Assembly: GCF_009696575.1 (NCBI RefSeq)
Contig: NZ_VULQ01000007.1
Coordinates: forward strand, 1 to 64,000
Direction: 5' to 3'
Length of the DNA: 64,000 bases
Source of the DNA: Anaerococcus porci
GTDB taxonomy: Bacteria; Bacillota; Clostridia; Tissierellales; Peptoniphilaceae
Below, one piece after another: positions 12,535 through 56,933 of this stretch. A program made the translations under genes and the position numbers. Each line of letters starts with the position of its first letter. The stretch's first letter is position 1. The notes beneath the pieces are model-generated. The model was not told the DNA's origin. It worked only from the letters and a program-made list of their open reading frames with translations, and searched no databases.

Positions 12535-12537
12535 TTT

Positions 12538-37929: not shown

Positions 37930-38286
37930 GTATAAATTTATATTTTATATAAGATTATAAGACTTTGGATAAATGAGAAATTTTAAAAGATGATACTACT
38001 ATATATTGCTTATTAATTATAATATATAATCAAATTTCCTATATTAATCTTTAAGATTAGTTATCTTTTTAAAAAATAAGGATAAAACTTATAAAAGTAT
38101 CAAGTATTATACTTTACTTATCATTATATATGGATTTCCTATTAACTTGCCTACAGTATAGCTAAAATTTTTCAAAAATTTGTAATAATCATCGAACTAT
38201 ATATATTAGCCTTATATAAAAAATCCTTTAAAATAGGCATTTATTTTCATAAATTACGAGTTTAATAATAAATTATAAAAAAATAT
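37930..38286. other. AT-rich intergenic stretch
   Basis: About 350 bp without an open frame, RNA gene or recognisable remnant. Ends at the promoter of the Met T-box leader. Confidence 0.5.
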
Positions 38287-38315
38287 TTGACAGCTTCAAG
38301 AAAAAATAGTATTAT
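38287..38315 (+). promoter_or_regulatory. promoter of the methionine T-box operon
   Basis: TTGACA (38287-38292), 17-bp spacer, TATTAT (38310-38315). Confidence 0.85.
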
Positions 38316-38321
38316 TACAAT

Positions 38322-38596
38322 ATCAAATCGAATTAGACTAAAATAAACCAGACAAAGAGAAGAGTAATTACGTGGATTATTCTACAGAGAGCCCTGTTTA
38401 GCTGAGAAGGGTGGATGAGAAATGTGATGAAGATGGCCTCAGATGGGATAAGTCGATAGTTAGACTTATACGGGAACTCCCGTTACAGGGTTAGGATATG
38501 CTAGTATCTGAAGTGGCATTTTTTAATGCAAAAAAGGTGGTAACGCGGAAAATTTTCGTCCTTATTGTAGCTTAGGCTATGATAAGGACTTTTTTA
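38322..38596 (+). ncRNA. T-box leader, Met specifier
   Basis: T-box core GGTGGTAACGCGGA (38536-38549) followed by a terminator (GTCCTTAT...ATAAGGAC plus T run, 38558-38596). Stem I carries AGAGTAATTA and a specifier loop GAAGATGG with ATG (Met) at 38433-38435. Layout GAA-N-codon matches the ilv T-box. The downstream metNIQ genes independently support Met sensing. Confidence 0.92.
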
Positions 38597-38629
38597 TTAC
38601 AAATAAAAATCAAGAGAAAGGATATAAAA

Positions 38630-39844
38630 ATGGCAGTTAAAGATATAGGAATAAGTGGTCAAGAAATAAAAGATTTATCTAAAGGAAATCTAGACTTTGC
38701 TAAGAATGTCAAAAATTACCTGCATGAGTTTCCTGAACTATCAAGTAAGGAATTTAAAACAAGAAAATTTCTGATAAGTGAGTGTAGAAAACTTTGCCTT
38801 GAAATTGAAGAAGTACAAAACTCAACTGGCTTTGTTGCAATTCTTGATACTAAAAGGCCAGGTAAAATTGTAGGAATAAGGACAGATATAGATGCCCTTC
38901 CTATAGATGAAAGTGAATTTAACTTAAATAGAAAAAAAGAGAAAGTATCTAAAAATCCTGGCGTAATGCACGCTTGTGGTCACGATGCTCATATGGCAAT
39001 AGTACTTACAAGTGCAAAAATTCTAACAAACCTTAAAGATAGACTTTCTGGAAAAATATACTTTATCTTTGAAGAAGGTGAAGAAACTGGTTCTGGTATC
39101 TATCCAATGATTGAGCATCTAAAGGATGTAGGATTTGATGCAATATATGGAAACCATATTGATACAGACCTTGCTGTTGGAAAAATAGGTATACCTCTTG
39201 ATTCAGTCTATGCAGGAAGCGTAGGAGTTGACTTTGATGTTATAGGTCGTGGTGGTCATGGTAAAAGACCTGATTTACTAATTTCTCCTATAACAGCCCT
39301 CACAAGCATCATAAATGCTCTAACAACAACTTGGGCAACAGGTTTTAATCCTGAGGAGATTATTACTTTAGGTATAGGGGCTATAAATGCAGGTCATGCT
39401 TCAAATGTAATACCAGATAAGGCAAATCTCAAGGCAACCCTAAGATTTTTCAAAGATGAGGTTGGAGAAAGGGCTCTAGATAAGCTTAAAGAAGTGGTTA
39501 GTGCCACTGCTTCAGTTTATGGCTGTAAGGTAAGATTTAATGACTTTACAAGAATTGTTGCCTACCCAGTCTTTAATGATAAAAAGCTTGCACTATTTGC
39601 AAGAAATTCTCTAGAAAACTTATTTGAAGACTCTCTTGTTGAGGTAGAAAGATCCTTTGGTGGAGAAAGCTTTTTTGGATATGCTAAACTATGTCCTACA
39701 GTTTTCGTAAAAATTGGAGTTAGAAATGAAGATGTTGGAGCTGGAGCAGGAGTCCACACAGATATATTTGATCTTGATAATGATGCACTATACTATGCAA
39801 TAGCTAATGCAGTTAATTTTGTAAAAGACTTTTTAAATAATTAG
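38630..39844 (+). CDS. M20-family amidohydrolase (N-acyl amino acid deacylase type)
   Basis: Zinc/manganese amidohydrolase of 404 residues that cuts N-acyl amino acids. Metal ligands in DIDALP (~residue 82), HACGHDAHMA (~109) and the EEGEETGSG catalytic Glu (~150) are intact. Start set at the ATG at 38630 after GAGAAAGGA; an in-frame ATG at 38579 lies inside the T-box terminator and is not plausible. As first gene behind a Met-sensing T-box and before metNIQ, it may free methionine from N-acyl- or N-formyl-methionine; that substrate is inference. Confidence 0.82.
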   Translation: MAVKDIGISGQEIKDLSKGNLDFAKNVKNYLHEFPELSSKEFKTRKFLISECRKLCLEIEEVQNSTGFVAILDTKRPGKIVGIRTDIDALPIDESEFNLNRKKEKVSKNPGVMHACGHDAHMAIVLTSAKILTNLKDRLSGKIYFIFEEGEETGSGIYPMIEHLKDVGFDAIYGNHIDTDLAVGKIGIPLDSVYAGSVGVDFDVIGRGGHGKRPDLLISPITALTSIINALTTTWATGFNPEEIITLGIGAINAGHASNVIPDKANLKATLRFFKDEVGERALDKLKEVVSATASVYGCKVRFNDFTRIVAYPVFNDKKLALFARNSLENLFEDSLVEVERSFGGESFFGYAKLCPTVFVKIGVRNEDVGAGAGVHTDIFDLDNDALYYAIANAVNFVKDFLNN

Positions 39845-39856
39845 AAAGAGGAATAA

Positions 39857-40885
39857 ATGATAGAATTAAAAGATATAAGTGTCGACTTTGATGGCTTTAA
39901 GGCAGTCGATAAGGTAAGTCTTAAAATAGAAAAGGCAGATGCCTTTGGCATAGTGGGATTTTCGGGGGCTGGAAAGTCAACCCTAGTAAGATGTATAAAT
40001 CTTCTACAAAAACCAACAGAAGGCGAAGTAATAGTAAATGGAGAAGATTTTCTAAAGCTTTCAGATAAAGAATTAAGAAAAAGACGTAAAAAAATCGGAA
40101 TGATTTTTCAACATTTTAACCTACTTAATAATCTTACTGTAATAGACAATGTGATATTTCCGATAAGAAAAGATCAAAAGAGTAAAAAAGAAAAACTAGA
40201 AAAGGCTCAAAAGTTGCTAGAGCTTGTAGGAATAGGGGATAAGGCAAACTCTTATCCTAGAGAGCTTTCAGGAGGACAAAAACAAAGATGTGCCATAGCA
40301 AGAGCTCTTGCATCTGATCCTGAGATTCTTCTTTGTGATGAGGCAACAAGTGCCCTTGACCCAAAGACAACCAAGCAGATCCTTGCCCTTTTACAAGAAA
40401 TAAAAGATAAAATCGGCCTTACTATAGTAATAATCACTCATCAAATGGAAGTTGTAAAAGACTTGTGTAATAAGGTTGCAGTAATGCAGGATGGGAAAGT
40501 TGTAGAAGAGGGAACAACGCTTGAAATTTTCTCAAATCCAAAAAACAAACTCACTAAGGATTTTGTTGAAACTTCAACTAATGTAAACCAAACCATAGAA
40601 GAAGTCAAAAATAATATATCAGCACTTGGACCTGATGAGTCCCTAGTTAAACTTTCTTATGTAGGAGAGAGTACAACAGAACCAGTTATAAATGAAATCT
40701 ATGAGAAATTTTCTATAAAGACAAATGTACTTGCAGGAAATATCGAGTTTATAACAGGAACTCCTGTAGGAAACCTAATAGTAACCTTTAAGGGAGATAA
40801 AGAAAAAATTGATCAAGCCGTTGAGTATCTAATATCAGGTGGAACGAATGTAACTTTTTTAGGAGATAGTAATGGAATACTTTGA
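39857..40885 (+). CDS. metN: methionine ABC transporter ATP-binding protein
   Basis: ATPase of the MetNIQ importer, 342 residues. Walker A GFSGAGKST (~residue 35), signature LSGGQKQRCAIARAL (~136), Walker B ILLCDEATSALD, and a C-terminal NIL regulatory domain (~265-342), which senses intracellular methionine. Its end overlaps metI by 14 bp. Confidence 0.95.
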   Translation: MIELKDISVDFDGFKAVDKVSLKIEKADAFGIVGFSGAGKSTLVRCINLLQKPTEGEVIVNGEDFLKLSDKELRKRRKKIGMIFQHFNLLNNLTVIDNVIFPIRKDQKSKKEKLEKAQKLLELVGIGDKANSYPRELSGGQKQRCAIARALASDPEILLCDEATSALDPKTTKQILALLQEIKDKIGLTIVIITHQMEVVKDLCNKVAVMQDGKVVEEGTTLEIFSNPKNKLTKDFVETSTNVNQTIEEVKNNISALGPDESLVKLSYVGESTTEPVINEIYEKFSIKTNVLAGNIEFITGTPVGNLIVTFKGDKEKIDQAVEYLISGGTNVTFLGDSNGIL

Positions 40886-41537
40886 TTATGCACTTTCAAT
40901 AAAAGATAGGATATTTGAGGATATAGGCCTAACATTTTATATGCTTATCTTATCAGCTATATTTTCTGGAATATTTGGACTTATAATAGGAGTTATTTTA
41001 GTTGTAACAAATGATGGGGGGATTTTAGAAAATAAAAAAGTTTACTCAATCCTTGATAAAATAACAAACCTCTTCAGAGCTATACCCTTTATCATACTTC
41101 TTGCTGTAATAAGCCCTCTTACAAATATAATAGTAGGAACAAGGATAGGGCCAACAGCTGCAATAGTACCCTTAGTTTTCTCATGTGTGCCATTTTTTGC
41201 CAAACAAGTAGAACAAGCACTTGCAGAAGTAGATCCAGGAGTAATAGAGGCTGCAGAAGCTATGGGAAACTCCCCTTTTGAAATAATAACAGCAGTTTAC
41301 TTAAGAGAAGGTCTTCCTTCACTTATAAGGGCGTCATCCATAACTCTTATCTCCCTTCTAGGTCTTACAGCTATGGCTGGAACTATAGGGGCAGGAGGAA
41401 TAGGAAATCTTGCCATAGCAGTTGGCTATAACAGATATAAAAATGATGTTGTAATAATTTCAGTAATAGTAATTTTAATAATTGTATATGCTATACAGGG
41501 TATAGCCAATTTATTAATAAAGAAAACATCACATTAA
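40872..41537 (+). CDS. metI: methionine ABC transporter permease
   Basis: Membrane subunit of MetNIQ, 221 residues, five helices. The EAA loop EAAEAMGNSPFEIITAVYLREGLPS fragment (~residue 120; EAMGNSPFEI) contacts MetN. Overlaps metN, and is followed 15 bp later by metQ. Confidence 0.94.
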   Translation: MEYFDYALSIKDRIFEDIGLTFYMLILSAIFSGIFGLIIGVILVVTNDGGILENKKVYSILDKITNLFRAIPFIILLAVISPLTNIIVGTRIGPTAAIVPLVFSCVPFFAKQVEQALAEVDPGVIEAAEAMGNSPFEIITAVYLREGLPSLIRASSITLISLLGLTAMAGTIGAGGIGNLAIAVGYNRYKNDVVIISVIVILIIVYAIQGIANLLIKKTSH

Positions 41538-41552
41538 TAAATATAGGAGGAA

Positions 41553-42428
41553 ATGATGAAAAAACTTACAAAACTAGCACTTACATTTGGACTTATACTT
41601 TCAGTTACAGCTTGTTCAAATAATAGTAGTAATAAAAATGTAGAAAGTAATAACTCTTCAAATCAAAGTCAAGCAGAAGACAGATTTGCCAATGCTGATA
41701 CTATTAAACTTGGTGTAGTTGGTGAAAAAAACGAGGTATGGCAAGATATAGCCAAAAGATATGAAAAAGACACAGGGAAGAGAATTGAAATCATATCTTT
41801 TTCAGATTATAATCAACCAAACGAGGCATTGAATTCAGGAGATATTGACATTAATGCTTTCCAACACAAGAAATTCTTGGAAGACTATAATCAATCCCAT
41901 AAGACAGACATAGTATCTATAGGAGACACCCTACTTGCACCAATGGGAATATACTCAGATAAGATTAAAGATGTAAAAGAAATTGAAATTGGTGATAAAA
42001 TCGCTATTCCAAACGACCCAACCAATGGAGCACGTGCACTTTTCTTACTTCAATCAGCAGGCCTAATAGAGCTTAATGGAAAAGAAGGAGATGCTATTAC
42101 AGTTGCCAATATTAAAAATAACCCTAAAAACCTTGAGATAATAGAACTTGATGCCTCACAAACAGCAAGAAACCTAACAGAAGTTAAGGCATCAGTAATA
42201 AACTCAGGGATGGCAGTAGATGCAGGATTTATTCCAACAGAAGATGCAATCTATCTTGAAGATAAAAATGATCCGGCAAAAGCAATTTATGTAAATATAA
42301 TAGCAGCTAAAAAAGAAGATAAGGACTCAAAAACTTTAGAAAATATAGTTAAAAACTACTATCAAACAGACGAAACAAAAAAAATAGTAGAAAAAGAATC
42401 AAAAGGTTCAGAAATACCAGCATGGTAA
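41553..42428 (+). CDS. metQ: methionine-binding lipoprotein MetQ, copy 1
   Basis: Lipid-anchored substrate-binding protein, 291 residues. Signal peptide with lipobox VTAC (Cys21), Ser/Asn-rich linker, then the NlpA/MetQ domain (SFSDYNQPNEALNSGDIDIN, QHKKFL, IPNDPTNGARALFLLQ). Delivers methionine to MetNI. Closely related to the next gene. Confidence 0.93.
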   Translation: MMKKLTKLALTFGLILSVTACSNNSSNKNVESNNSSNQSQAEDRFANADTIKLGVVGEKNEVWQDIAKRYEKDTGKRIEIISFSDYNQPNEALNSGDIDINAFQHKKFLEDYNQSHKTDIVSIGDTLLAPMGIYSDKIKDVKEIEIGDKIAIPNDPTNGARALFLLQSAGLIELNGKEGDAITVANIKNNPKNLEIIELDASQTARNLTEVKASVINSGMAVDAGFIPTEDAIYLEDKNDPAKAIYVNIIAAKKEDKDSKTLENIVKNYYQTDETKKIVEKESKGSEIPAW

Positions 42429-42443
42429 AATAAGGAGAGAATA

Positions 42444-43310
42444 ATGAAAAAACTAGCAAAAATCGGATTAAGTCTTGCACTAATTATTGGAATAACAGCG
42501 TGTGGAAATAATAATAAAGATGATAGCAAAAAGGCAGCTTCAAATGATACATCAAATTCTACACAAGCAAGTGAAAAACAAACCATAAAAATTGGTGTTG
42601 TTGGAGAATTTAATGATGTATTAAAAGAAGTTGCTAAAAGATATGAAGAAAAAACAGGCAATAAAATTGAAATTGTAGTATTCGGCGACTATAACCAGCC
42701 AAACGAAGCTCTAGAAGCAGGTGATATTGACCTAAATGCCTATCAACACAAAAAGTTCCTAGAAGGATTTAACAAAGACCATGGAACAGATTTAGTATCT
42801 ATAGGAAATACAATGCTTGCACCTTTAGGAATCTACTCTAAACAATACAAGTCACTTGATGAAGTAAAAGACGGTGATAAAGTAGTAATTCCAAATGATG
42901 CATCAAACGGAGCAAGAGCCTTATTCTTACTTCAAGATGCAGGGCTTATAAAAGTAAATGGCAAAAAAGGAGATCCAGTAACTGTAACAGATATTTCAGA
43001 AAACCCTAAAAAACTTGAAATAATTGAAGTAGATGCCTCACAAACAGCAAGAAACCTAGAATCGGCAGCTCTTGCTGTAGTAAATGACACCTTTGCACTT
43101 GACTCAAAGATTGCAACAGAGTTTCCAGCACTAAAATTTGAAGAATCAAAACCAACAGATGACAACCCATATGTTAATATAATCGTAGCTAAAAAAGATA
43201 GAAAAGATGATAAAGTATTAAATGACTTTGTTAGAAACTACTATCAAACAGACGAAACAAAAAAAGACTACGAGAAATTCACAGGTGGAGCTTGGATACC
43301 TGCTTGGTAA
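42444..43310 (+). CDS. metQ: methionine-binding lipoprotein MetQ, copy 2
   Basis: Second MetQ/NlpA lipoprotein, 288 residues, with lipobox ITAC (Cys20). Shares NQPNEAL, DAS.NGARALFLLQ, EVDASQTARNL and the C-terminal YYQTDETKK with copy 1, so the pair is a tandem duplication. It lies 15 bp after copy 1. The copies may bind different forms (for example D- or L-Met or Met-peptides); unknown. Confidence 0.93.
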   Translation: MKKLAKIGLSLALIIGITACGNNNKDDSKKAASNDTSNSTQASEKQTIKIGVVGEFNDVLKEVAKRYEEKTGNKIEIVVFGDYNQPNEALEAGDIDLNAYQHKKFLEGFNKDHGTDLVSIGNTMLAPLGIYSKQYKSLDEVKDGDKVVIPNDASNGARALFLLQDAGLIKVNGKKGDPVTVTDISENPKKLEIIEVDASQTARNLESAALAVVNDTFALDSKIATEFPALKFEESKPTDDNPYVNIIVAKKDRKDDKVLNDFVRNYYQTDETKKDYEKFTGGAWIPAW

Positions 43311-43330
43311 AAATATCAAACCATAATCGT

Positions 43331-43357
43331 AGAAAGGCCCTTGCTGGGTCTTTTCTA
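43331..43357 (+). terminator. terminator of the met operon
   Basis: AGAAAGGCCC and GGGTCTTTTCT stem with a T-rich right arm. Confidence 0.65.
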
Positions 43358-43410
43358 TTGCTTAAATTTACATAAATTATAGTATAATGACATAAAAAAT
43401 TAGAGATTTA

Positions 43411-43773
43411 TGTTAATAGGAGAAATTAGAAATAAGGTGGACTCCATCTGGACTACCTTGTGTATAGAGGGTTAAACCAACCACTTACAAATATAGAGCA
43501 AATTACATACCTATTTTTTATTAAATGTCTTGATGAAAGAGATATAAACCTCGAAAAAGATGAAAACGTCAAAATAAATAAGGCTAAAACTTTACAAAAA
43601 ATAGTAGAAGGCTATAGATGAACTTCCTACAGAAGATAACGACATAAAAGGAAATATCTACGAATACCTTTTATCCAAACTTCTTCGCACACCAAGATAT
43701 ATTATAAAAATGATAGTAGAACTAGTTAGACAAAAGCTGATGATTTAATAATAGATCCAGCTTGTGAGTTTCG
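43411..43773 (+). pseudogene. remnant of type I restriction methylase hsdM (N-terminal part)
   Basis: Three frames together read a recognisable HsdM: IRNKVDSIWTTL; then NQPLTNIEQITYLFFIKCLDE; then [29 protein letters not shown] and DLIIDPAC. The last is the start of the SAM/DPAC motif. There is an early stop, at least two frameshifts and a small deletion (the usual segment between LSKL and RTPR is missing). The gene breaks off right after DPAC, where repeat R1 begins. Non-functional. Confidence 0.85.
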
Positions 43774-43824
43774 TTTCACCTTATGACAACGTCAGATAGT
43801 TACGATGGATACTTGGTTTTAGAG
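43774..43824 (+). repeat. cassette-linked repeat R1
   Basis: Core TTATGACAACG, then CAGATAGT, GATG and TTTTAGAG. One of four diverged copies (R1-R4) in the same orientation. It directly abuts the truncated hsdM and lies 87 bp before the NUDIX gene. Confidence 0.65.
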
Positions 43825-43911
43825 CCTCTACAAAAAAATAAAAATAACAATTAATAGAATTTGAACGATAATTTAAAAACCAACTTGAAATAACGTGTAT
43901 TAGGAGAGAAG

Positions 43912-44388
43912 ATGGATATTAGTTTTATAAATAATAAAGAAAAATTTAATTATAGAGTATGTGGGATAATCATCAAAGAAAATAAAATTTTGGCGATGAA
44001 AGACGAGAGATCCTCTTATTATTATTTGCCAGGTGGACGAGTTATGATAGGGGAACGAGCAGAAGATGCAATCATTCGTGAGATAAAGGAAGAGCTTGAA
44101 ATAGATGCTTCGATTATTAGACCGCTATGGCTTAACCAAGCTTTCTTTCGAGAAAATGTAGATAAACTTCAATATCATGAGCTGTGTATTTACTTTTTAA
44201 TGGATATTGAAAATACATCTATTTCACAAAAGGGAAATAAATTTACTTTACAAGAAGGTAACCATACCCATGACTTTGAATGGTTATACTTTGATTCACT
44301 AACAGATTTATATTTTTATCCTTTGTTTTTAAAAGATGAAATATTTAATATTCCTGAGACATTTACACTACTTACTGAAATAGAGTAG
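43912..44388 (+). CDS. NUDIX hydrolase
   Basis: Pyrophosphohydrolase of 158 residues. NUDIX box G-x5-E-x7-R-E-I-K-E-E at GRVMIGERAEDAIIREIKEE (~residues 43-62) is intact, with the terminal Gly replaced by Leu (EELEI). N-terminal strand RVCGIIIKENKILAMKDE. Good ribosome site (TAGGAGAG). Intact orphan gene in an island of broken genes, preceded by repeat R1. Substrate unknown. Confidence 0.88.
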   Translation: MDISFINNKEKFNYRVCGIIIKENKILAMKDERSSYYYLPGGRVMIGERAEDAIIREIKEELEIDASIIRPLWLNQAFFRENVDKLQYHELCIYFLMDIENTSISQKGNKFTLQEGNHTHDFEWLYFDSLTDLYFYPLFLKDEIFNIPETFTLLTEIE

Positions 44389-44480
44389 TTATTTTATTTA
44401 CCTACATAGATTCCTTTATTCCGAAAAACGATTTATTTCATTCTGAAAAAGCCTTTTATAATATGCTTTATGTGATGAAA

Positions 44481-45388
44481 ATGTATTAGTATAAAAGAAG
44501 CCACAGAGAAATGGGAAATTTCAGATAGAAGAATATGAGTGCTCTTGAAAGAGGAAAAAATTCCAGTTGCTTTTCGTAGAGGCAAACTTTGGTAGATTCC
44601 TTCAAGTGAAAAAAATCTAAGATGGATGTTTGAAAAAAGTTGATGATTTACTGTTTAAAATTGAAAAGAATAAAAAGATATTAGATAACAAACGTCCACT
44701 AACTTGGGGAAGGCTAGAGGACTAAACGAAGAATTTAAAGTTGAATATACTTTTAACTCTAATGCTATTGAAAGGAATACACTAACCCTAAGAGAAAAAG
44801 ATATGGTTTTAAGGGGCTGACGATTGACAGAAAACCCTTAAAATATTACCTCGAAGCAATAGGTCACAAAGAAGCTTTTGATTTTGTAAGGTCCTTAGTA
44901 AAAGAGAAAGCACAATTAACAGAGAGTATTATTAAGCAAATACATTATTTGATTTTATCAGATAAAAAAGATGATAGAGAAGTTTATTGAACAGTTCCTG
45001 CTCGTATAATGAGAGTTAAGGTATAATGAGAGTTAAGTATGAATCAGTGCAACCCTATTTAAGAGAGCCCAAGATGAATGAGTTATTAAATTGATATCAA
45101 GAAGCTTCAGAAAATATTGTTTCAAATTTGAATAAATTCCATATTGAATATGAAGCAATTCATCCATTTATAGATGGAAATGTAAGGACTGGAAGATTCT
45201 TGGTCAACTTAGAGCTAATTAAAACAGGCTACCCTCCTATTGATATTAAGTTTACTAATAGAGTTTCTTACTATAAAGATTTTAACGAACATCATACTAA
45301 AGGAGATTTATCAGATATGGAAAATTTATTTGCTGGTTATTTAATTGAAAGGCCTAAATATTACATTAATATATTAAGTGATGAGTAG
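44481..45388 (+). pseudogene. broken Fic-family gene with N-terminal HTH
   Basis: Conceptual reading gives an HTH domain (SIKEATEKWEISDRR, KIPVAFRRGKLW), then the Fic N-terminal helices (KRPLTWG, EEFKVEYTFNSNAIERNTL) and the Fic motif HPFIDGNVRTGR near the end (family motif HxFxDGNGRTGR, with Gly changed to Val). Several stops and frameshifts interrupt it, including a 17-bp tandem duplication at 45004-45037. The open 3' piece 45128-45388 still spans the active-site loop but lacks the rest of the domain. Fic proteins AMPylate target proteins and often act as toxins. Confidence 0.85.
45004..45037 (+). repeat. 17-bp tandem duplication inside the fic pseudogene
   Basis: GTATAATGAGAGTTAAG occurs twice head to tail with no mismatch (45004-45020 and 45021-45037). 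Seventeen is not a multiple of three, so it shifts the frame. Confidence 0.9.
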
Positions 45389-45407
45389 ATTTAACGCCTG
45401 GGTCTCT

Positions 45408-45456
45408 TGTCATAATTGTGATAATGGCAGATAGTAAGATGGACATTGGCTTTCAA
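45408..45456 (+). repeat. cassette-linked repeat R2
   Basis: Core TGTCATAATTGTGATAATGG then CAGATAGTAAGATGG. Matches R4 over TCATAATT, GGCA and ATAGTAA. Lies between the fic remnant and the phosphotransferase gene. Confidence 0.65.
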
Positions 45457-45515
45457 TCATTCTACTAGAAAACTAATAAGAGATGGTTCATAATTTATTG
45501 GAAAAGGATATTTAT

Positions 45516-46370
45516 ATGACTAATGATAAAAAAATTATAGAAGAATTAATAGAATACCAATTAGAAAATACTAAAGTCAATTTGATTCGAGAAAAAGATG
45601 GAATTGGTGTATATCGTGTTGAAACACCAGGTCATTCATATGTATTAAAATATTTCTACAATAAAGAATTTCGTAGAGAAATTAGTTATTATCAAACTCT
45701 AAAATCCTTGAATATTCCGACAATTCAAGTGTTTGGAAGTACACAATCTTCAATTCTTCTTGAAAATATTAATGGATCATTTGAATTTCGTTTAGGTCAG
45801 AAGGAAGATTTTGAAAATAAAAATATTATTAAGGCCTTGGCGAGATGGTATAAACTTCTCCATAAAAATGGTATGAAATATGCTGAGGATAACAATTTAT
45901 ATTCTCAATGGGATTATCTGTCTGAATTAAATTTATATAAGATGGCTAATAAATTTGATTTATCTAATGAAAAATCGTTTATAAACTTTATGAACTTTTA
46001 TCCTAGAATTTGTGAAAAAATGAGAAATGCTAAGAAGACTCTTATCTATCAGGATTTCTATTATACAAATATGGTGGTTAGCATAGATGAAAGTAAAGCA
46101 TTTATGTTCGATTATAATATGCTTGGCAAAGGTTCATATATATCGGATATTTTGAATGTTACTTATTGGTTTTCTAAAGAAAACAAACAATTATTCATTG
46201 ATGAGTATGGTGGCATTGATTACCAATTGTTAAATTTAGAAAAGTTAATTGCGCCATTTATTGCATTGATTATTGCAATGGAAAGAAATGTTTATCTATC
46301 CTGGACTCAGGATGCTAAAGATACTATCATAAACAAAGTCGATTCATATTTAGAATACTTTCACAATTAG
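45516..46370 (+). CDS. aminoglycoside phosphotransferase/choline kinase-like protein
   Basis: Small-molecule kinase fold. From the ATG at 45516 (after AAAAGGA) it has 284 residues; an upstream ATG at 45483 would add 11. ATP-lobe pattern GVYRVETPGHSYVLKYF with Lys, then a catalytic-loop equivalent YQDFYYTNMVV (~residue 190) and FDYN for the metal site. The usual catalytic-loop His (HGDxxxxN) is Tyr-Gln here, a notable deviation, although Asp and Asn are kept. Substrate unknown; resistance to an antibiotic should not be assumed. Confidence 0.7.
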   Translation: MTNDKKIIEELIEYQLENTKVNLIREKDGIGVYRVETPGHSYVLKYFYNKEFRREISYYQTLKSLNIPTIQVFGSTQSSILLENINGSFEFRLGQKEDFENKNIIKALARWYKLLHKNGMKYAEDNNLYSQWDYLSELNLYKMANKFDLSNEKSFINFMNFYPRICEKMRNAKKTLIYQDFYYTNMVVSIDESKAFMFDYNMLGKGSYISDILNVTYWFSKENKQLFIDEYGGIDYQLLNLEKLIAPFIALIIAMERNVYLSWTQDAKDTIINKVDSYLEYFHN

Positions 46371-46389
46371 ATTAAGAAACCCGGCTTTT

Positions 46390-46442
46390 GTGTCATAATA
46401 ATGATAGAGGAAAATAGTTATGTAAATATAAGGAGTTTAGAG
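46390..46442 (+). repeat. cassette-linked repeat R3
   Basis: Weakest copy: TGTCATAATAATGATAGAGG, then AAAATAGTTA and GTTTAGAGTTTCT. Same orientation as the others, between the phosphotransferase and the KilA-N remnant. Confidence 0.5.
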
Positions 46443-46544
46443 TTTCTACCAAAGTTTAAAACTCAAAAAATAAATATTTGGTGTGCTGCTTAGGGTAATA
46501 ATATAATTATTGTAAGGAGTATACCAGTATAAGGAGGAAGTAAG

Positions 46545-47391
46545 TTGACAAAGATTAGAAAGGAAAAGATTACTGCTAAGGGATTTAGCATTCAAGTTTA
46601 TACTGAAGACTTTAAGAATGATTATATTAGCTTAACAGATATAGCTAAATATAAAAATAAGCAAGAGTTCAATGTCGTTGTAGCCAATTGTATGAGAAAT
46701 TATAATACTATGAATATTTAGGGATATGAGAGTAAGTTAAACAATCCAAATTTTAACCCCCTCGAATTCGAGTGGTATTACAAGAAGCAGGTAGCGATGC
46801 TTTTACTCTATCACCTCAAAAGTGGCAAAAAACAACAAATGTAATTGGATTATTTGCAAAACTTGGAAGATGCGGAGGAACTTTCGTCCATAAAGATATT
46901 GCGTTTAAATTTGCATTTTGGATATCAGCTGAGTTTGAACTATATATAATAAAAGATTATCAGAGATTAAAGGAAGATGAAAATTTAAAATTATCTCTAT
47001 CATGGAATCTTCATAGAGAAATATTAAAGATAAATTATAAAATTCATACTTATGCAAGCAAAGAATATTTGATAAAAGATTTGACGAATGAACAATTGTC
47101 ATTTAAATATGCAAGTGAAGCTGATATGTTAAACGTGGCATTATTTAAAAAAATAGCCAGACAGCGGAGAGAAGAAAATCCAAAACTAAAAAGAAACATG
47201 AAGGACTATGCAAGCCTTAATGAACTCTTAGTACTTGCCATATGGAGTCATATAATGTGATTTTAATTGAAAAGGGAATTTGTCAAAAAGAAAGAATGAT
47301 TGAGCTAAGAAACTTGGCTAGAGCACAACTAATTTCTCTAGAAAGGTTAAATAATTTAGAATTAAAGAGTTATCAGAATAGAGAAAATTAA
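46545..47391 (+). pseudogene. broken KilA-N domain gene
   Basis: Starts with TTG after AAGGAGGAAG and reads TKIRKEKITAKGFSIQVY, DYISLTDIAKYKNKQEFN and VVANCMRNYNT before a stop; after frameshifts the sequence resumes as EAGSDAFTLSPQKW, GRCGGTFVHKDIAFKFAFWI and YIIKDYQRLKEDENL. This is the KilA-N DNA-binding domain plus its C-terminal extension, with at least three disruptions. The intact 3' frame 46772-47260 encodes only part of it. Such proteins are common in phages and islands. Confidence 0.85.
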
Positions 47392-47473
47392 GTATAAAAA
47401 ATAGATTTGATGAAAATAAATGTATTTATTAATTGTACTAATATTTTATTTAAGATGTAAGAAGTGGACCTTA

Positions 47474-47525
47474 TTTCATAATTATGACAACGGCATATAG
47501 TAAAGATGATGAATGGATTTTAGAG
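47474..47525 (+). repeat. cassette-linked repeat R4
   Basis: TTTCATAATTATGACAACGG, then CATATAGTAAAGATG and TTTTAGAG. About 70% alike to R1 over 68 columns by hand alignment. Lies 31 bp before the methyltransferase start. Confidence 0.65.
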
Positions 47526-47556
47526 TTATCTGCGAAAAATATAAGAGGAATAAAAA

Positions 47557-48357
47557 ATGGATTTTAAAGAAATTTCAAAAATAGATAATGATTTTATTAG
47601 AAATGAGAAATTGTATAAATTTTTTGACGAAGAAAAAAGACTATTTAGTAAATCAGGTCAGATTGAAAAAATTACTACCTTAAAAGAAATTTCTAATTAT
47701 ATTAGTCAAGATTCAAAAATTCTAGATGTTGGAGCAGGAACTGGGGTTTACAGTATCCCTTTGGCTGAAAAAGTAAATAAAGTTATTGCTTATGAACCTG
47801 CAACTAATAACTATATACAAATAAAAGAAAAAATCAAAAAGAATAATTTGCAGAATATTACAGTTGAAAATAAAAGTTCACTTAATATGGAAGAGCTAAA
47901 AGATGAATATTTCGATATAGTCCTGCTATTTGGACCTATGTATCACTTATCAAGCGAAGAAGACAGAGTACATACACTTAGTGAAGCAAAGCGTGTTGTT
48001 AAAGCTGGAGGACATATACTAGTATCTTTTATCAACCATGACATGATTCCAATGACAGAAATGGTCTATAATTCAAATTTTTTTGAAACTGAAGGATATA
48101 ATCCCACAAAGCAAAGACTTATAAATAGACCCTTTATTTTCTTTACATTATCAGAGTGCATTGAAATGCTTGAAAAGGAAAATCTTATAATCATTAGAAA
48201 AGTTGCCACAAGTGGATATTCTGAATTATTACAAAATCAGATTAATGATATGAGTAACTTATCTTATGGAAGATATATTGATTGGCACCTTGCTCATTGT
48301 GATAAAGAAGAGTTACTAGGAGCAAGTAATCATTATCTTTTTGTTTGCAAAAAGTGA
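47557..48357 (+). CDS. class I SAM-dependent methyltransferase
   Basis: Rossmann-fold methyltransferase of 266 residues. SAM motif I ILDVGAGTGVYSIPLAEKV (~residue 52), acidic motif II VIAYEPATNN and post-motif LLFGPMYHL (~residue 127) are intact. Closest by eye to small-molecule methyltransferases; the substrate is unknown. Intact orphan gene preceded by repeat R4 in the accessory island. Confidence 0.85.
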   Translation: MDFKEISKIDNDFIRNEKLYKFFDEEKRLFSKSGQIEKITTLKEISNYISQDSKILDVGAGTGVYSIPLAEKVNKVIAYEPATNNYIQIKEKIKKNNLQNITVENKSSLNMEELKDEYFDIVLLFGPMYHLSSEEDRVHTLSEAKRVVKAGGHILVSFINHDMIPMTEMVYNSNFFETEGYNPTKQRLINRPFIFFTLSECIEMLEKENLIIIRKVATSGYSELLQNQINDMSNLSYGRYIDWHLAHCDKEELLGASNHYLFVCKK

Positions 48358-48539
48358 ATATAGAATAAAATGCTAAAAGACATAATGTTTAATAACCACC
48401 AAAATAAAAAACAATTAAGTTTTTAAGTTTATTGATATTGTTTTAGATTTTTTACCCTGTAGTGACATCTTGTTATTAAAATCTTTGATGAAAAACAAAG
48501 TGCTAAGAGATAGCTTATTTACAAAAATTAGAATAATAG

Positions 48540-49470
48540 ATATTTAGAAAATGATAAGTTTGATAGTAAGTACAAGGAATTAGGGGACAATTTTATAATG
48601 CAGCTTTATAAGGATGTAAAAAGCTCGATAGAAAGTAATTTAGGATAAAAAATCTTATTGAAGAAGTCACCAAGTTTTCTGATTTTAATTTATGGCCTAG
48701 GATAGAAAATAAAGATATAAATGATTTTGATAAAATAGGAAGGATTATTAATCTGCCTGAAAGTCACGAACTTACCCAAAGATTTCATAATTCCATGCTT
48801 CAACTTGAATTAGGTTTATTACAAGGCAACTTAAATATAATTGCTATAAAAACTATAAGGCAGACTGCCAAAAACCTATCCAAAAAAGGAAAATATAAAG
48901 AAAGGCGATTAAGAAAAATCTTACCTATTAAAAAACATAGAAGACGATAATTTTTGGAAAGATATAGGCCTTATGAAATTTGAAGAAATAAGGCTAGCTC
49001 TTAGAGATTTTATGCCTTTAATTGGCCTTAAAGAACAAAAAAGCTACTATTCAAACTTTAAGGATGAATTTATTAGTATAAAAGAAAATGATGTTGAATT
49101 TTTTGAAGAAGCTCTTAAAATATATAGGGAAAAAGCTAAGCACTATGTAAAATCAAAAGTAAAGGATGATCGTATCATAAATTAATAATTATAAGATCGA
49201 TAACAGGATTAAGTCAAGATAGTATAAACAAAGCCTTTGCTGAATTTTATAGAGAAAATAAACTAAACTATGAGCAACAAATGTTTGTAAAAACCATAAC
49301 CAATTACCTAAAGAAAAATAACTACCTATCTATGGAAGTCTTCTAAAAAGAGTCTTTTAAATCAATAGGCTCTATTACAAAAATTTTTAAAGATAATAAA
49401 AAAGAAATTAGAAGCCTACTTAATATTCTAAATAAGCTAAATGAATATGTAGATGTGGTCTAAAAATTAA
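48540..49470 (+). pseudogene. remnant of type I restriction subunit hsdR (C-terminal part)
   Basis: Several frames spell a decayed HsdR-type C-terminus: IEEVTKFSDFNLWPRI, RIINLPESHELTQRFHN, then FEEIRLALRDFMPLIGLKEQ (open frame 48973-49185), SITGLSQDSINKAFAEFYRE and QQMFVKTITNYLKKNNYLS. The last part matches the EcoEI-type R-subunit C-terminal domain in pattern. At least four stops or frameshifts. The helicase and nuclease halves are absent. Non-functional. Confidence 0.7.
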
Positions 49471-49536
49471 TAAAAGTATATATGAACTAGGAATTAGAAC
49501 AAAACTAAATATTAAAGCTTCTATATAGCAAAATGA

Positions 49537-49570
49537 AAGGCTACGAGTTTGAAAACTCATAGTCTTTTTA
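49537..49570 (+). terminator. terminator after the hsdR remnant
   Basis: GGCTACGAGTTT and AAACTCATAGTC stem followed by a T run. Confidence 0.8.
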
Positions 49571-49756
49571 GTTATAATGTTTTATTGATAGATATCATAA
49601 AAATAAAAGTTAGATTTATTTTACTTTGTAATTTCAGTTTACTTATTATGATTATATATTAAGAAATAGTATAACTAATTTAATCCTTGAACTTTTTATT
49701 TTATTAAATAAGTATTTTAAAATATTAAATTCATCAAATTAAAGTATAATAAAGCT

Positions 49757-50260
49757 ATGAGAAAAGCAGAATTAAAAGATTTGAAAAATGTAATGGAAAT
49801 AATTGAAGATGGGAAGCTTTCACTTAAAGAAGACGGGATAGACCAATGGCAAAATGGTCTTCCTAAAATAGATGATATAAGGAAAAATATAGAATCTAAT
49901 CAAGGCTATGTTTATATAGTAGATGGTGAAATTGTTTCATTTGCTTATCTTAAAGAAGATTATGAAAAGGATTATGAGCCTATTGAAAAAGGCTTCAAAA
50001 AACATGATGATTTTTTTACTATACATAGATTAAGTATCAAAAAATGTTCGAAAGGAAAGGGGATTTCTAAGAAGTTTTTGGGCGAAATCATAGCTTTTGC
50101 TAAGGATAGAGGGCTTTCATCTGTTAGGATTGATACCCATAGAGATAACTTTAAGATGAAATCTTTGATAAAAAAGTTTGATTTTAAAAAGATTGGGCCA
50201 TGTTTTGTAGATGATGGAAAGGGAAGAAGCGAAAGAATTGCCTATGAGTTAGTATTATGA
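49757..50260 (+). CDS. GNAT family N-acetyltransferase
   Basis: Acetyl-CoA-dependent transferase of 167 residues. N-terminal RKAELKDLKNVMEIIEDG, core strand FFTIHRLSIKK and the acetyl-CoA loop CSKGKGISKKFLGEIIAFA (~residue 97) are typical. A TATAAT lies at 49745-49750, so transcription may start at or next to the ATG; no ribosome site is seen. It overlaps the helicase gene by 4 bp. Confidence 0.85.
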   Translation: MRKAELKDLKNVMEIIEDGKLSLKEDGIDQWQNGLPKIDDIRKNIESNQGYVYIVDGEIVSFAYLKEDYEKDYEPIEKGFKKHDDFFTIHRLSIKKCSKGKGISKKFLGEIIAFAKDRGLSSVRIDTHRDNFKMKSLIKKFDFKKIGPCFVDDGKGRSERIAYELVL

Positions 50261-52839
50261 TAAATAAAAGTCAAGAAATTATAGTGAATGAATCAAAATA
50301 TCCAGCTTGTGTTATAGCAGGTCCTGGGACTGGAAAGACATTTACTATAGTTAGAAAAATTATATCTTTAATCAAAAATGATGGTCTTGCTCCCAATAGG
50401 ATTCTTGTTACAAGTTTTACCAAAAAAGCTGCCAATGAGCTTATAGAAAGGGTTGAATCCGAGCTTAAAAAAGAAAATATCAAGGCTGATACTTCCAATA
50501 TGCTTATAGGGAATTTCCATTCTCTTGCCTTGAATTTTTTAAGAAAATACAAATCCTTTAGTGGGGATATTTTAGAAAAAAGGGTCATTGACCAAGCTAT
50601 GGAAGGCTATTTACTTGAAAAAAATCTTCATATCTTTAAAAATATTGATGATTTTGACACTTATATTTCCTATAATGAAGTTGGTCAAATTATGGGAATA
50701 TTTTCCTATATTACCAACAACCTTATAGATTTGAATGCTTTAAGGGAGTCCAATGATAAAAAAGATAGATTAGGTCTTGAAATTTATTTAAAATGGGCGA
50801 GTTTTTTGGATGAAAATAAGCTTATTAATTATCAGCTTATCCTTAAAAATTTCTACAATCTTTTAGATGATTTTGAATATGGGAGAAAAATCAGGGATGA
50901 GATAGATTTTGTAATAATAGATGAGTATCAAGATACTAATCATATCCAAGAAGAGATAGGGTTTAAACTTTTAAAAGGTAAGAATATCATGGTTTTTGGA
51001 GATGATGATCAATCACTTTATGCTTTTAGGGGAGCAAGTCCAGAAAACCTCACAGATTTTAATAAGACTTGCGAGAGAAAGCTTAAGTGCAAGGCCAATT
51101 TTTATAGTCTTAATATAAACTACAGATCGAATCAGGAAATTATAGATAAGTCCAAGGATTTTTTATCTCAAAGTGGTGCCTTTGATCAGATTAAAGATCT
51201 TAAGGCTTTTGATGAAGAAAATAATCACAATACAGTGGTAAGGGCAAGGGCTTTAAACTATGATAATATACTAAAGATTATAAAAGAGTTAAATAAGGAT
51301 ATTAATTTAAATCAAATAGCCTTTCTTTTTCCAAGCTTAAAACACAAGTATCCAAAAGATCTTCAGTCATTTTTTGAATTTAATAAAATAGGAGTCTTAA
51401 ACAAGTCATCTAAGCTTTTTTTTAGAAGAGATGAGGTAAGGATTTTGCTTTTTATCCTTCTTTCCATATATTCAAGAAAGCCAAAATCAAAAGAAGGTTC
51501 TAATGAAAATAATTATAAAAGAGCACAGGAGACGCGTTTTAAGACCTATCTTATATCTATCTTTGATGATGTGAATTTCAAAAAAGATAAGGATTTAAAT
51601 TGTTTTATAAGTAATAAAAAAGAAAAAATCAAAGAAAATTTATCTTATACTGATATAATCTATGAATCTTTTAAACTACCTATAGTGAAATCCTACCTTG
51701 ACCAAGAACTTAAAGGACTAAAGGCTATTCGTAATCTTTCAAATATAGGAAAATTTACTGAGATTATAACTGATTTCATTGATATAAATGGACCTGATAT
51801 TAACTTTTACCAAAAGTCAGTAGAGCTTTTTTATGGATATATTTTTTATCTCTTTAAAAATGAGCTGGTTCCTGAATTTGAAGATTTTGATACACCAAAA
51901 AATGCTATAAATTTTTTAACTATCCACCAATCAAAAGGACTTGAGTATGATGTAGTTTTTGTATCTGGTCTTTATGAGAATCCATCAAGTCCTAAGATGG
52001 GTTTTTCTAAAAACATAAGAGATAAAAATGGAAATAATGAGTATAAAAATTTTTTCAGAAAGTACTATACAGCTATGACCAGAGCTAAAAAACTTTTAGT
52101 AATTTTAGATAACTCAGAGAATTTTCAAATCAAAAATTTCCAAAAAGGTCTGAATAATTCATCAAATTTATCGACTCTTGACCTTAAATTTGAAAAAGAA
52201 GAAGTAAAAAAAGAAATATTAGCATACACAACTGACATTGAAGTTTATAAGTCTTGTCCTTTAAAATACAAATTCATAAGGCTTTTATCTTTTAGAAAAG
52301 AAAAAAGCAAGTCTTTAATCTTTGGTTCAAATGTCCATGCTATAGCTGAGTTTTTGACTAATCTTCAAAAGGAGGGCAAGTCATTAGATTTAGTAAATGA
52401 ATTTATAAAAAATAATAAAATATATCAAAAGCCAATAGAAAATTTTGTAAATAGAGATTTTAATATAAAAGAATCAGAGCTTAACCTAAAGCTTGACAGA
52501 GGATTTTATTTACTTCAAGGAAATATTGATGTGGTTTTAGAAGATGGTTCGATTGTTGATATAAAGACGGGAAAAGTAAATGAGAATTATTTAGAAAGAT
52601 ATAAAAACCAACTCCTTACTTACTACAACTTGTTTGTGTATAATAACAAAAAGATAAAAGACTTATACCTTTATTTTATAGAAAGTGATAAGCTTATTAA
52701 AGTTAAGAGAGATAACTTTAATATAAGTATGATTGATAATCTTGCTAAAAATATAGTTAAGAGAAATATTGAAGTAAAAACAAGTAATAGAGATGAGTGC
52801 AAGTTTTGTCCTATGGCTTACTTTTGTGATAGAGCTTGA
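50257..52839 (+). CDS. UvrD/Rep-type helicase fused to a RecB-like Fe-S nuclease domain
   Basis: DNA unwinding and cutting protein of 860 residues. The N-terminal two-thirds is superfamily 1A helicase: Walker A AGPGTGKT (residues 21-28), DEYQDTN, GDDDQSLYAFRGA, and late motifs LTIHQSKGLEYDVVF and YTAMTRAKK. The C-terminal PD-(D/E)xK nuclease has DIKTGK near residue 770 and four Cys for an Fe-S cluster: Cys667 and C-x2-C-x5-C at 848/851/857, the AddB/Cas4 arrangement. Smaller than AddA or AddB, with no partner visible next door. A repair or anti-phage role is plausible. Confidence 0.85.
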   Translation: MINKSQEIIVNESKYPACVIAGPGTGKTFTIVRKIISLIKNDGLAPNRILVTSFTKKAANELIERVESELKKENIKADTSNMLIGNFHSLALNFLRKYKSFSGDILEKRVIDQAMEGYLLEKNLHIFKNIDDFDTYISYNEVGQIMGIFSYITNNLIDLNALRESNDKKDRLGLEIYLKWASFLDENKLINYQLILKNFYNLLDDFEYGRKIRDEIDFVIIDEYQDTNHIQEEIGFKLLKGKNIMVFGDDDQSLYAFRGASPENLTDFNKTCERKLKCKANFYSLNINYRSNQEIIDKSKDFLSQSGAFDQIKDLKAFDEENNHNTVVRARALNYDNILKIIKELNKDINLNQIAFLFPSLKHKYPKDLQSFFEFNKIGVLNKSSKLFFRRDEVRILLFILLSIYSRKPKSKEGSNENNYKRAQETRFKTYLISIFDDVNFKKDKDLNCFISNKKEKIKENLSYTDIIYESFKLPIVKSYLDQELKGLKAIRNLSNIGKFTEIITDFIDINGPDINFYQKSVELFYGYIFYLFKNELVPEFEDFDTPKNAINFLTIHQSKGLEYDVVFVSGLYENPSSPKMGFSKNIRDKNGNNEYKNFFRKYYTAMTRAKKLLVILDNSENFQIKNFQKGLNNSSNLSTLDLKFEKEEVKKEILAYTTDIEVYKSCPLKYKFIRLLSFRKEKSKSLIFGSNVHAIAEFLTNLQKEGKSLDLVNEFIKNNKIYQKPIENFVNRDFNIKESELNLKLDRGFYLLQGNIDVVLEDGSIVDIKTGKVNENYLERYKNQLLTYYNLFVYNNKKIKDLYLYFIESDKLIKVKRDNFNISMIDNLAKNIVKRNIEVKTSNRDECKFCPMAYFCDRA

Positions 52840-52879
52840 AAAAGGACTACTATGTAATACAATATTCTTAGGTGATAAT

Positions 52880-53194
52880 ATGGAATCTCAAATGTTAAAA
52901 GGAGTTATCGAAGGGGTAATTCTTCAAATAATTAAAAATAAAGAAACATATGGTTATGAGATTGTAGAAAATCTAAGGCTAAATGGTTTTTATAATATGA
53001 CAGAGTCAACAGTTTATCCAATCCTACAAAGATTATCCAATAAGGGTCTTATCCTTTCATCAAAGGAGAAGTCTAAGCTTGGACCTAAGAGAAAATATCA
53101 TTATATAACCCCCAAAGGGGAAGAATACTTAGAGGAATTTAAAGAAAGTTTTAGAGAGCTTGAAAGACTAGTTGGAAATATTATAGGAGATTAA
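52880..53194 (+). CDS. PadR family transcription regulator
   Basis: Winged-helix repressor of 104 residues starting at the ATG at 52880 after AGGTGATA; an upstream in-frame start at 52793 would overlap the helicase end and add 29 unrelated residues. Contains TYGYEIVENLRLNGF, ESTVYPILQRLSNKGLI and KYHYITPKGEEYLEE, the standard PadR core. It lies directly before the pseudouridine synthase gene (1 bp gap). The regulated target is not clear. Confidence 0.88.
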   Translation: MESQMLKGVIEGVILQIIKNKETYGYEIVENLRLNGFYNMTESTVYPILQRLSNKGLILSSKEKSKLGPKRKYHYITPKGEEYLEEFKESFRELERLVGNIIGD

Positions 53195-53195
53195 G

Positions 53196-53897
53196 ATGAT
53201 AATGAGAGTAGATAAAATGATTGGAAATGCCAATCTTGATACAAGAAAAAATATAAAAAGAAACGCCAAAAAGGGAGCTCTTCTTATAAATGGAGAAATC
53301 ATAAAGGATTCATCAACAAAGGTTGATCCTAATGTAGATGAGGTAGTTTATATGGGAGAGTTAGTAGACTATTTTGACAATATTTATATTATGATGAATA
53401 AGCGAGAAGGTCTTATTTGTCAATCAAATGAACTTGATGGAACTGTAATGCAAGACTTGGATGATTTTTACCTAAATCTTGATATATCAATAGTCGGAAG
53501 ACTCGATAAGGATACAACAGGACTTTTATTAATGTCAACTGATGGGAAATTTGTCCATAAGCTTATAAGTCCAAATTCAAATATTTGGAAAAAATATGAG
53601 GTTGAAACTTCTAAAAAAATAGATCCTTCTTTAGTTGAAATTTTTAGAAATGGAGTATATATTAAAGAAGATGACTATACAGCAAGAAGTGCTAAACTTG
53701 AAATCCTTGATGAAAGAAAAGCCTATGTATATGTAACAGAAGGTAGATTTCACTTAGTTAAAAGGTTATTTTCCAACAACAACAATGAGGTAATAAAGCT
53801 TAGAAGACTTGCTATAGGGGATTTAGAACTTGATTCTAGTCTTAATCCTGGACAATATAGAGAACTTAGTAAAGAAGAATTGAATTTATTTATCTAA
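53196..53897 (+). CDS. 16S rRNA pseudouridine synthase, RsuA family
   Basis: Modifies uridine in rRNA. An N-terminal S4 RNA-binding domain (residues 3-60) and the RsuA/RluB catalytic domain with the active-site motif GRLDKDTTGLLL (~residue 99, catalytic Asp). 233 residues is normal. Start could be the ATG at 53196 or at 53202. One base after padR, so co-transcribed. Confidence 0.9.
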   Translation: MIMRVDKMIGNANLDTRKNIKRNAKKGALLINGEIIKDSSTKVDPNVDEVVYMGELVDYFDNIYIMMNKREGLICQSNELDGTVMQDLDDFYLNLDISIVGRLDKDTTGLLLMSTDGKFVHKLISPNSNIWKKYEVETSKKIDPSLVEIFRNGVYIKEDDYTARSAKLEILDERKAYVYVTEGRFHLVKRLFSNNNNEVIKLRRLAIGDLELDSSLNPGQYRELSKEELNLFI

Positions 53898-53991
53898 ACA
53901 AAAATTCCATAAAAAATAAGTTTAGATTAAAATAGGAATAAATAAGTGGCGCTCTTGAGTAGTGCCTTTACCTTGTAAAAGTGGAGGGTAT

Positions 53992-54600: not shown

Positions 54601-54741
54601 TTAGCCTTTTGGCTTTTAGATACAAATAAAATGTTTTCATAAAGTAAAGATAAATTCTTATAAAGAAAATAATAAAAAGATTTTAATATTATAGGACTTC
54701 ACTTTTTTTCGGAAAATATTGGATTCTTTTCATGAAATTGA

Positions 54742-54770
54742 TTGCATTTATTTTTACATTGTGATATTAT
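54742..54770 (+). promoter_or_regulatory. promoter of glpP-glpK
   Basis: TTGCAT (54742-54747), 17-bp spacer, TATTAT (54765-54770). Confidence 0.75.
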
Positions 54771-54778
54771 TAAAATAT

Positions 54779-54824
54779 AAGAATATTATGGAGAAGCGAG
54801 CAGGATTAATAACCGGCTCGCTTT
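54779..54824 (+). promoter_or_regulatory. GlpP-type RNA leader in front of glpP
   Basis: AAGAATATTATGGAGAAGCG leads into the hairpin AAGCGAGC/GCTCGCTT. Shares the AAGAATA-TAT and GAGAAGCGAG segments with the leader at 56969. No long T run, so its off-state may be weak or act on translation. Confidence 0.6.
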
Positions 54825-54843
54825 GTGTATTTATGGAGGATAA

Positions 54844-56933
<2,090 letters not shown>

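Follow-up and report, generated by a model that had tools for sequence, protein, structure and literature searches.

Four copies of a repeat (R1 to R4) stand in the same orientation, each ahead of an accessory gene, in a 64,000-nucleotide stretch of the genome of Anaerococcus porci (contig NZ_VULQ01000007.1, positions 1 to 64,000; hereafter the window). Comparison with related genomes indicates that they are attL-type left arms of the Tn1806-like family of integrative and conjugative elements (ICEs), which insert by means of three serine integrases. It is probable, in our judgment, that the four repeats are such arms, that the one- and two-gene cassettes found behind arms of this kind were moved in trans by the integrases of the ICEs, and that the window holds a decayed array of them. 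The arm itself is that of a known ICE family; the cassette form is what the literature searched does not describe. An earlier sequence-only reading of the window had noted four blocks of about 50 bp and had suggested a cassette or shared recombination site. The four copies are real and all lie on the + strand, their length is about 78 bp, and the suggestion was right in substance.

The repeat as an attachment arm

The profile models used in the searches are also named R1, R2 and R3, and are distinct from the repeats; handles beginning with G, C and L denote genomes, contigs and loci. Because model R1 was built partly on the window copies, and would be circular evidence for them, a leave-out model (model R3) was made from 11 copies, all from other genomes. 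It recovered the repeats R1, R2, R3 and R4 with E values of 1.2e-14, 9.8e-17, 1.1e-6 and 3.2e-12 (the last matching from 47474), and beyond these four the next match in the window had an E value of 3.4. When up to 3 mismatches were allowed, a shorter pattern matched twice in the window (R1 and R4); 100 shuffles gave a mean of 0.00. Two further copies of the element are present in the same genome, on contigs C4 and C5.

What the arm belongs to is seen in G047, in which an ICE starts within hsdM (DPTLG) at C4:64743. Three overlapping large serine recombinase genes (SR1, SR2 and SR3) lie at C4:127419-132245, and the right arm ends 77 bp after the last recombinase stop codon, where the hsdM frame is taken up again after a GG core; the joined hsdM flanks read DPTLGSGSLLLNVK. 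SR1 and SR2 contain the Pfam domains PF00239 and PF07508, and the searched part of SR3 contains PF07508. The linked recombinase that the sequence-only reading had proposed to look for is thus present in relatives, at the far end of ICEs with the same arm. Conjugation genes stand behind the element in several loci; we take them to be of Tn1549 type, in line with Ambroset's description. The replication-initiator gene of the ICE follows the arm at L054, L055, L058 and L133 (96-100% identical to that of L054), at L152 (86%) and, as a partial copy, at L159 (95%).

Two Streptococcus records match SR3 of the Anaerococcus ICE at 70% and 98% identity, and 13 further genomes of the order match it over the full length at 97-98%. 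The right arm GTCATAAGCTTGACATGAGAGG was present at 12 of the 14 loci with a full-length SR3 of at least 97% identity, directly after SR3 in ten (one base is changed in L112 and L118, and L112 lies at a contig end) and one gene beyond it in two. At L119, where SR3 is 70% identical, the right arm has diverged. The frames that resume past the right arm are, by eye, methyltransferase-like in most of these loci. At the level of whole genomes, SR3 of at least 70% identity was found in 17 of 249 (one a broken 153-aa match and one a 295-aa match); the element is present in 16 of these 17 versus 51 of the 232 others (Fisher 2e-9), an association which mainly reflects the element's being part of the ICE.

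The arm halves on either side of GG make an imperfect dyad, with 16 of 23 positions matching in Streptococcus agalactiae CP138365.1 (0 of 20,000 shuffles) and 12 of 21 in G047 (42 of 20,000 shuffles). A dyad of this kind around a 2-bp core is as expected of the attP of a serine integrase; it was seen on the arms of the ICEs.

CP138365.1 provides the connection with ICEs whose transfer has been followed experimentally. Its copy of the element, at 19748 (model R1, E 1.2e-16; leave-out model R3, E 1.3e-11), forms the left end of a Tn1806-like ICE, whose SR3 is 70% identical and whose right arm ends GACACGAGAGG. The strain and plasmid names in this record (R31-snf2) point to the transconjugants described in the excerpted text of PMC12942858, and its ICE to ICESag167. 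According to that text, the Tn1806-like ICEs that carry the serine integrase triplet use hsdM, snf2 and a methyltransferase gene of Eco57I type as insertion sites, and conjugation of ICESag167 yielded insertions at hsdM, snf2 and Eco57I-type sites; section 3.2 gives boundary repeats TGGG-GGGA or GGGT, which fit the junctions seen here (PMC12942858). Serine integrase triplets, with hsdM, traG or mutT as targets, are also described in the portion consulted of Ambroset 2016 (PMC4701971).

Target site and distribution

The left flanks of the element share the pattern GA-YYY-W-...-GG. Among 58 distinct flanks, G stands at -14 in 49 and A at -13 in 46, a pyrimidine occupies -12, -11 and -10 in 46, 47 and 48, while 54 have G at -2 and 52 have it at -1. 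Nineteen of the 27 distinct flanks having an open reading frame (ORF) of at least 50 aa end in hydrophobic-D-x-x-x-G/W, which we take to be the pattern of methyltransferase motif I; among the remaining eight are a MetQ-like lipoprotein and a transporter-like frame. A MetQ-like gene serves as a target in G122. Some left flanks consist of the end of another cassette or ICE that precedes the element. Target-site duplication was rejected, since the left flank is not repeated on the right.

The element is present in 67 of the 249 genomes of the order (model R1, E <=1e-4), with 114 matches, and in 16 of 391 genomes sampled from the class (E 1e-3). In public genomes a pattern scan found 4 places, spread over three records (a Mageeibacillus sp., a Clostridiales metagenome-assembled genome and Kallipyga), and among plasmid records one, A. 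prevotii pAPRE01, carries it. There was no match to an exact 20-base pattern in viral contigs, nor any in a distant search of phage records. Three weak matches (one in L061 and two in L150) were dropped before tabulation; the 82 copies tabulated comprise 76 of the 114 matches in the order and 6 from other scans, and their left flanks, merged if they differed in no more than 3 of 24 bases, gave the 58 distinct ones. The 67 positive genomes and the 82 copies with 58 distinct flanks exclude the possibility, raised in the sequence-only reading, that the copies occur only here or are a duplicated coding remnant.

One widely shared composite unit was noted among these copies. At 18 loci (e.g. L022, L059, L061, L135), which account for 18 of the first 77 copies, the flank ILDHCAG is followed by the element and then, in 17 of the 18, by an IS3-type transposase; where read, a gene for a Csac_0668-family 2Fe-2S protein is also present. 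An IS3-type unit of about 2 kb, 99% identical, is also found behind LDFFAG (L057) and LDATCG (L131) flanks, and the unit has therefore stood at three targets.

Cassettes and their right ends

Behind many arms there are only one or two genes, with no ICE gene seen and no integrase; the sequence-only reading had proposed to ask whether copies sit beside other single-gene inserts, and in other genomes they do lie ahead of further inserts of one or two genes. The cargo includes GNAT, methyltransferase, DJ-1, AIPR and carbon-nitrogen hydrolase genes, and genes named from sequence only are metallo-beta-lactamase (MBL)-like, divergent AAA-like and peptidase E-like. A methyltransferase cassette of 965 bp is 99% identical in G042 and A. 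prevotii pAPRE01, with both ends exact and unrelated DNA on both sides; in G042 the gene ahead of it belongs to a kind itself found as a cassette. A NUDIX plus GNAT cassette of 1318 bp, 95% identical in G072 and G068, has the same two ends in both. Two GNAT cassettes in G088 interrupt hsdM precisely at GG, between GTTGG and ATCC, and the joined flanks read DPTVGSGSLLL. These cases show some of the inserts behind the arm to be discrete one- or two-gene units with exact ends, recurring at unrelated places. A gene of about 620 aa was also seen as cargo in L063, L126 and L142, 97-98% alike over about 2.1-2.3 kb (AIPR, PF10592, in the L063 copy).

Many cassettes share a right end of about 70 nt, in which a box near CCACCTGAATAGA and a box near CATTGATATTACTATAGGAT are followed by about 10 variable bases and, in most, by GG. 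The cassette ends in a GA-N10-GG half-site that resembles the left half of attB. A model of this end (model R2), built from 17 cassette right ends, matched in 33 of 249 genomes at E 1e-3 and in 16 of 249 at <=3.8e-9; seven of these 16 (G132, G091, G030, G033, G026, G129 and G029) lie outside model building. SR3 of at least 70% identity is found in 5 of the 16 genomes with a strong right end versus 12 of the 233 others (Fisher 0.002). An ICE of the family and a cassette occur together in G042, G144, G069, G132 and G033.

An inverted-repeat hairpin in the right end looked promising in one cassette and was rejected, the final bases varying, by eye, without compensation. In four genomes the right ends (L007, the same place as L024; L175, L176 and L180) run into a similar flank (about GAGAACAWAACNNCATATTTGATACATTTTAACGGC) and not into GG; this flank is perhaps a further element end. 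The target at L007, in Kallipyga, was guessed from the reading frame to be YafQ, and three other genomes have a right flank like it.

The array in the window

The features of the array are collected in Table 1. The hsdM-like frame breaks off where R1 begins, as the sequence-only reading had noted; the break is at IIDPAC, in motif I, and R1 lies at DPAC with core GA. The name hsdM for this remnant is presumptive and follows that reading. GA-N(10-11)-GG, a feature absent from the sequence-only reading, stands ahead of each repeat, with GA in place of GG at R1. Intervals 1 and 2 end in GA-N10/11-GG overlapping a stop codon, and interval 3 ends about 60 bp past the KilA-N frame.

Table 1. Features of the repeat array, in positions of the window.
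Feature	Position	Strand	Evidence
5' remnant of hsdM-like methyltransferase gene (target), to IIDPAC (motif I), frame broken	43431..43764	+	translation
attB-type left half GATCCAGCTTGTGA, up to the core (GG in most copies, GA in this one)	43754..43767	+	
Repeat R1, attL-type left arm (about 78 bp)	43765..43842	+	leave-out model
Cassette 1 gene: NUDIX hydrolase, 158 aa	43912..44388	+	PF00293, E 5e-12
Broken Fic/DOC-type gene between NUDIX and R2; start approximate, open only over final 86 codons (45128-45388)	44480..45388	+	translation; PF02661, E 1.1e-7 on 45128-45388
Repeat R2, attL-type left arm, GATTTAACGCCTGG ahead	45399..45475	+	leave-out model
Cassette 2 gene: phosphotransferase-like (APH family), 295 aa	45483..46370	+	PF01636, E 8.1e-4, 19.7 bits, under Pfam cutoff 23.2
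Repeat R3, attL-type left arm, second subfamily (as Anaerococcus/Streptococcus ICEs), GATTAAGAAACCCGG ahead	46383..46460	+	leave-out model
Cassette 3 gene: KilA-N protein, broken by in-frame stop	46547..47260	+	PF04383 on 46772-47260
Repeat R4, attL-type left arm, GATGTAAGAAGTGG ahead	47465..47542	+	leave-out model
Cassette 4 gene: class I methyltransferase, 266 aa	47557..48357	+	PF13649
Right end of last cassette; boxes near CCACC and ATTGATATT; ends in GATTTTTTACCCTG	48389..48459	+	model R2 match 48389-48454, E 3.5e-8 in window (itself among the 17 sequences used for model R2)

The NUDIX, phosphotransferase, KilA-N and methyltransferase genes named in the sequence-only reading are borne out by Pfam, the phosphotransferase at a score below the cutoff and KilA-N in a broken frame. 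The gene order is also as it had stated; its count of one gene per copy fails in the first interval, which holds the Fic/DOC remnant as well. Genes related to the KilA-N gene of the window stand behind the element elsewhere (tblastn), and cassette 4 has relatives, as element plus gene, in G109 (L158; 82.5% DNA identity) and G045 (L150; 80.9%) over about 880 bp. The sequence-only reading had found no integrase in the window, and we agree: there is no serine integrase among the ORFs of 38000-56000, and thus no complete Tn1806-like ICE, and a recombinase motif scan of the whole window flagged a single ORF, 12055-12537, apparently by chance. The window looks like an old, partly decayed array within an hsdM-like gene. 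The HsdM and HsdR labels on the degraded frames beside it are likewise presumed, following the sequence-only reading, and a Pfam search of one such frame (48973-49185) gave no match.

Upstream, a T-box leader at 38343-38566 (Rfam) precedes an amidohydrolase-like gene and transporter operon at 38579-43310, which holds two MetQ-like lipoprotein copies (gene names from sequence).

Proposed mechanism and the explanations weighed

In the explanation that we favor, the triple integrases would join the attP of the ICE (right arm-GG-left arm) to the GG of attB, cutting at a GG core inside the codons for methyltransferase motif I (D-x-x-x-G). The cassettes would be non-autonomous units, mobilized in trans by the same integrases, with the ICE arm as their left end and an attB-like half-site (GA-N10-GG) as their right end. 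If the integrases accept this half-site, insertion would put attL ahead of the gene and a renewed target after it. Since each insertion would leave a usable site behind, arrays would grow in one orientation.

Several observations weigh against mobilization by ICE integrases. The conserved right end of the cassettes is unlike the right arm of the ICEs, so that the integrases of the ICEs may not accept it; in the window this end is found only at the last cassette. Among copies of what is apparently one GNAT cassette the GA-to-GG segment varies (by eye), which a plain reaction with a 2-bp overlap would not be expected to give. No excision or circle was observed, and the joined flanks of the G042 cassette gave no spanning match, and so no empty site, in 31 genomes of the genus. 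Most cassette carriers (11 of the 16 genomes with strong right ends) are without a close SR3. The A. porci genome too has no close SR3, the best being 41% identical and on another contig, as part of a diverged serine recombinase triplet at C6:8461-13448 (L192, - strand). Among the 14 loci with full-length SR3, the right arm was not found at L109 in the 9.3 kb read, and L117 has only its core. The C6 triplet adjoins Fic-type and ABC transporter genes (named from sequence). A remoter triplet relative (SR3 44%) occurs at L122 in G237, where the right end TTGACATCAAAGGG runs into the frame GMGKTEA, another target motif.

The chief rival to movement of cassettes in trans is that the array is a graveyard of ICEs, built by their repeated insertion and decay, in which each repeat is a stump with attL and the first gene, the rest having been deleted; the products would be cis-mobilizable elements (CIMEs), whose formation and tandem accretion are known, according to the excerpted text of PMC5704250. 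The window copies are indeed decayed, the left arm in CP138365.1 has KilA-N as the first annotated gene after it, and KilA-N follows the element at less than 500 bp in 10 of 77 rows, R3 of the window included. In G068, moreover, the right arm of an ICE is fused straight to a left arm, attP-like, ahead of further genes (L128, at about 1412, and L129, at about 1139), which suggests tandem accretion. Stump decay could account for KilA-N; it accounts less easily for the GNAT or NUDIX cassettes. GNAT, NUDIX, MBL-like and peptidase E-like genes were unseen in the left regions of ICEs that were read (G047, G063, G122 and G461). Nor does stump decay fit the cassette right ends that were read, which are without the ICE right arm and in many cases have a conserved end of their own, or the two exact-ended cassettes at unrelated sites with 95-99% identity. 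We consider this origin unlikely. It is more doubtful still that a separate, non-ICE family of elements owns both ends and moves by another recombinase or transposase, the ICEs having come to share its left end by recombination. The scarcity of close SR3 in genomes with strong right ends, the variable GA-to-GG segment and the IS3-type transposase behind the arm in the shared unit would agree with such a family, but the core and the target are those of the ICEs. A motif scan of part of the loci (before L125 and later) flagged serine recombinases and some chance matches; it is a weak test of other enzymes, since a tyrosine recombinase gene that lies outside the cassettes, in the hsdS region of L020, escaped it.

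That the repeat is a dispersed sequence or a regulatory leader, a promoter or RNA element copied before genes, can hardly be right. The copies do stand shortly ahead of genes and on the same strand, but the element breaks other genes in frame at a fixed core; promoter-like sites in 43600-48600 are at the level of chance (31 versus 30.3 expected), an Rfam search of 38000-52000 at gathering thresholds gave only the T-box, which lies elsewhere, and the folding of 15 copies gave 6 pairs, none of them compensatory. Conserved RNA structure was accordingly rejected. A coding remnant was also rejected: the arm is open as RVIIMTTADSNDGYW in several copies, which is due to in-frame interruption of the target. 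No supporting feature was seen for a group II intron, an IS200/605 element or a diversity-generating retroelement, at which no search was aimed.

Comparison with known systems

Tn1806, ICESag167 and other Tn1806-like ICEs have the left arm, the GG core and methyltransferase targets in common with the window; the latter differs in having no integrase, conjugation genes or ICE right arm, only arms and single genes. CIMEs are likewise non-autonomous, bounded by attachment sites and able to stand in tandem. They keep the attR of the parent ICE along with its attL, whereas the last boundary in the window and the cassette right ends that were read are not the ICE right arm; the right end of the cassettes instead imitates an attB left half, their cargo is one or two genes, and two cassettes are found again elsewhere as exact units.

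With integron cassettes there is a functional analogy, in single genes, arrays of one orientation and a shared recombination site. In integron attC the R'' site is RYYYAAC and the R' site GTTRRRY, with the crossover in GTT, and attC and attI share the core G/TTRRRY. Here the boundary is GG, the arm lies ahead of the gene and the recombinase is presumably a serine recombinase; in cassettes with both ends known the crossover, placed by eye against the attC consensus, is at GG. An R'/R'' reading of the flank (GACCCAAC) failed across flanks, and the earlier remark that the copies do not resemble standard attC sites is thus upheld. In the open-license literature searched, no paper on integrons in Anaerococcus was found, nor any description of one or two genes behind the arm as a cassette form.

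Implications

The repeats of the window gain a definite identity, and one that ties them to a mobile family which spreads resistance genes among Gram-positive bacteria. Somewhat short of an even chance is what we would give the broader proposal of a serine-integrase counterpart of the integron, with two-ended single-gene cassettes (an ICE-type arm on the left, and on the right an end of about 70 nt with an attB-like half-site), the triple integrases of ICEs, motif I targets renewed at every insertion and arrays of one orientation across Tissierellales and relatives. If cassettes do move by ICE integrases in trans, Firmicutes would gather single genes in the manner of integrons, without having integrons, and the genes so gathered would include those for acetyltransferases, NUDIX proteins, methyltransferases and AIPR-family proteins. 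Such trans-mobilization could also help to explain why three integrases are maintained together.

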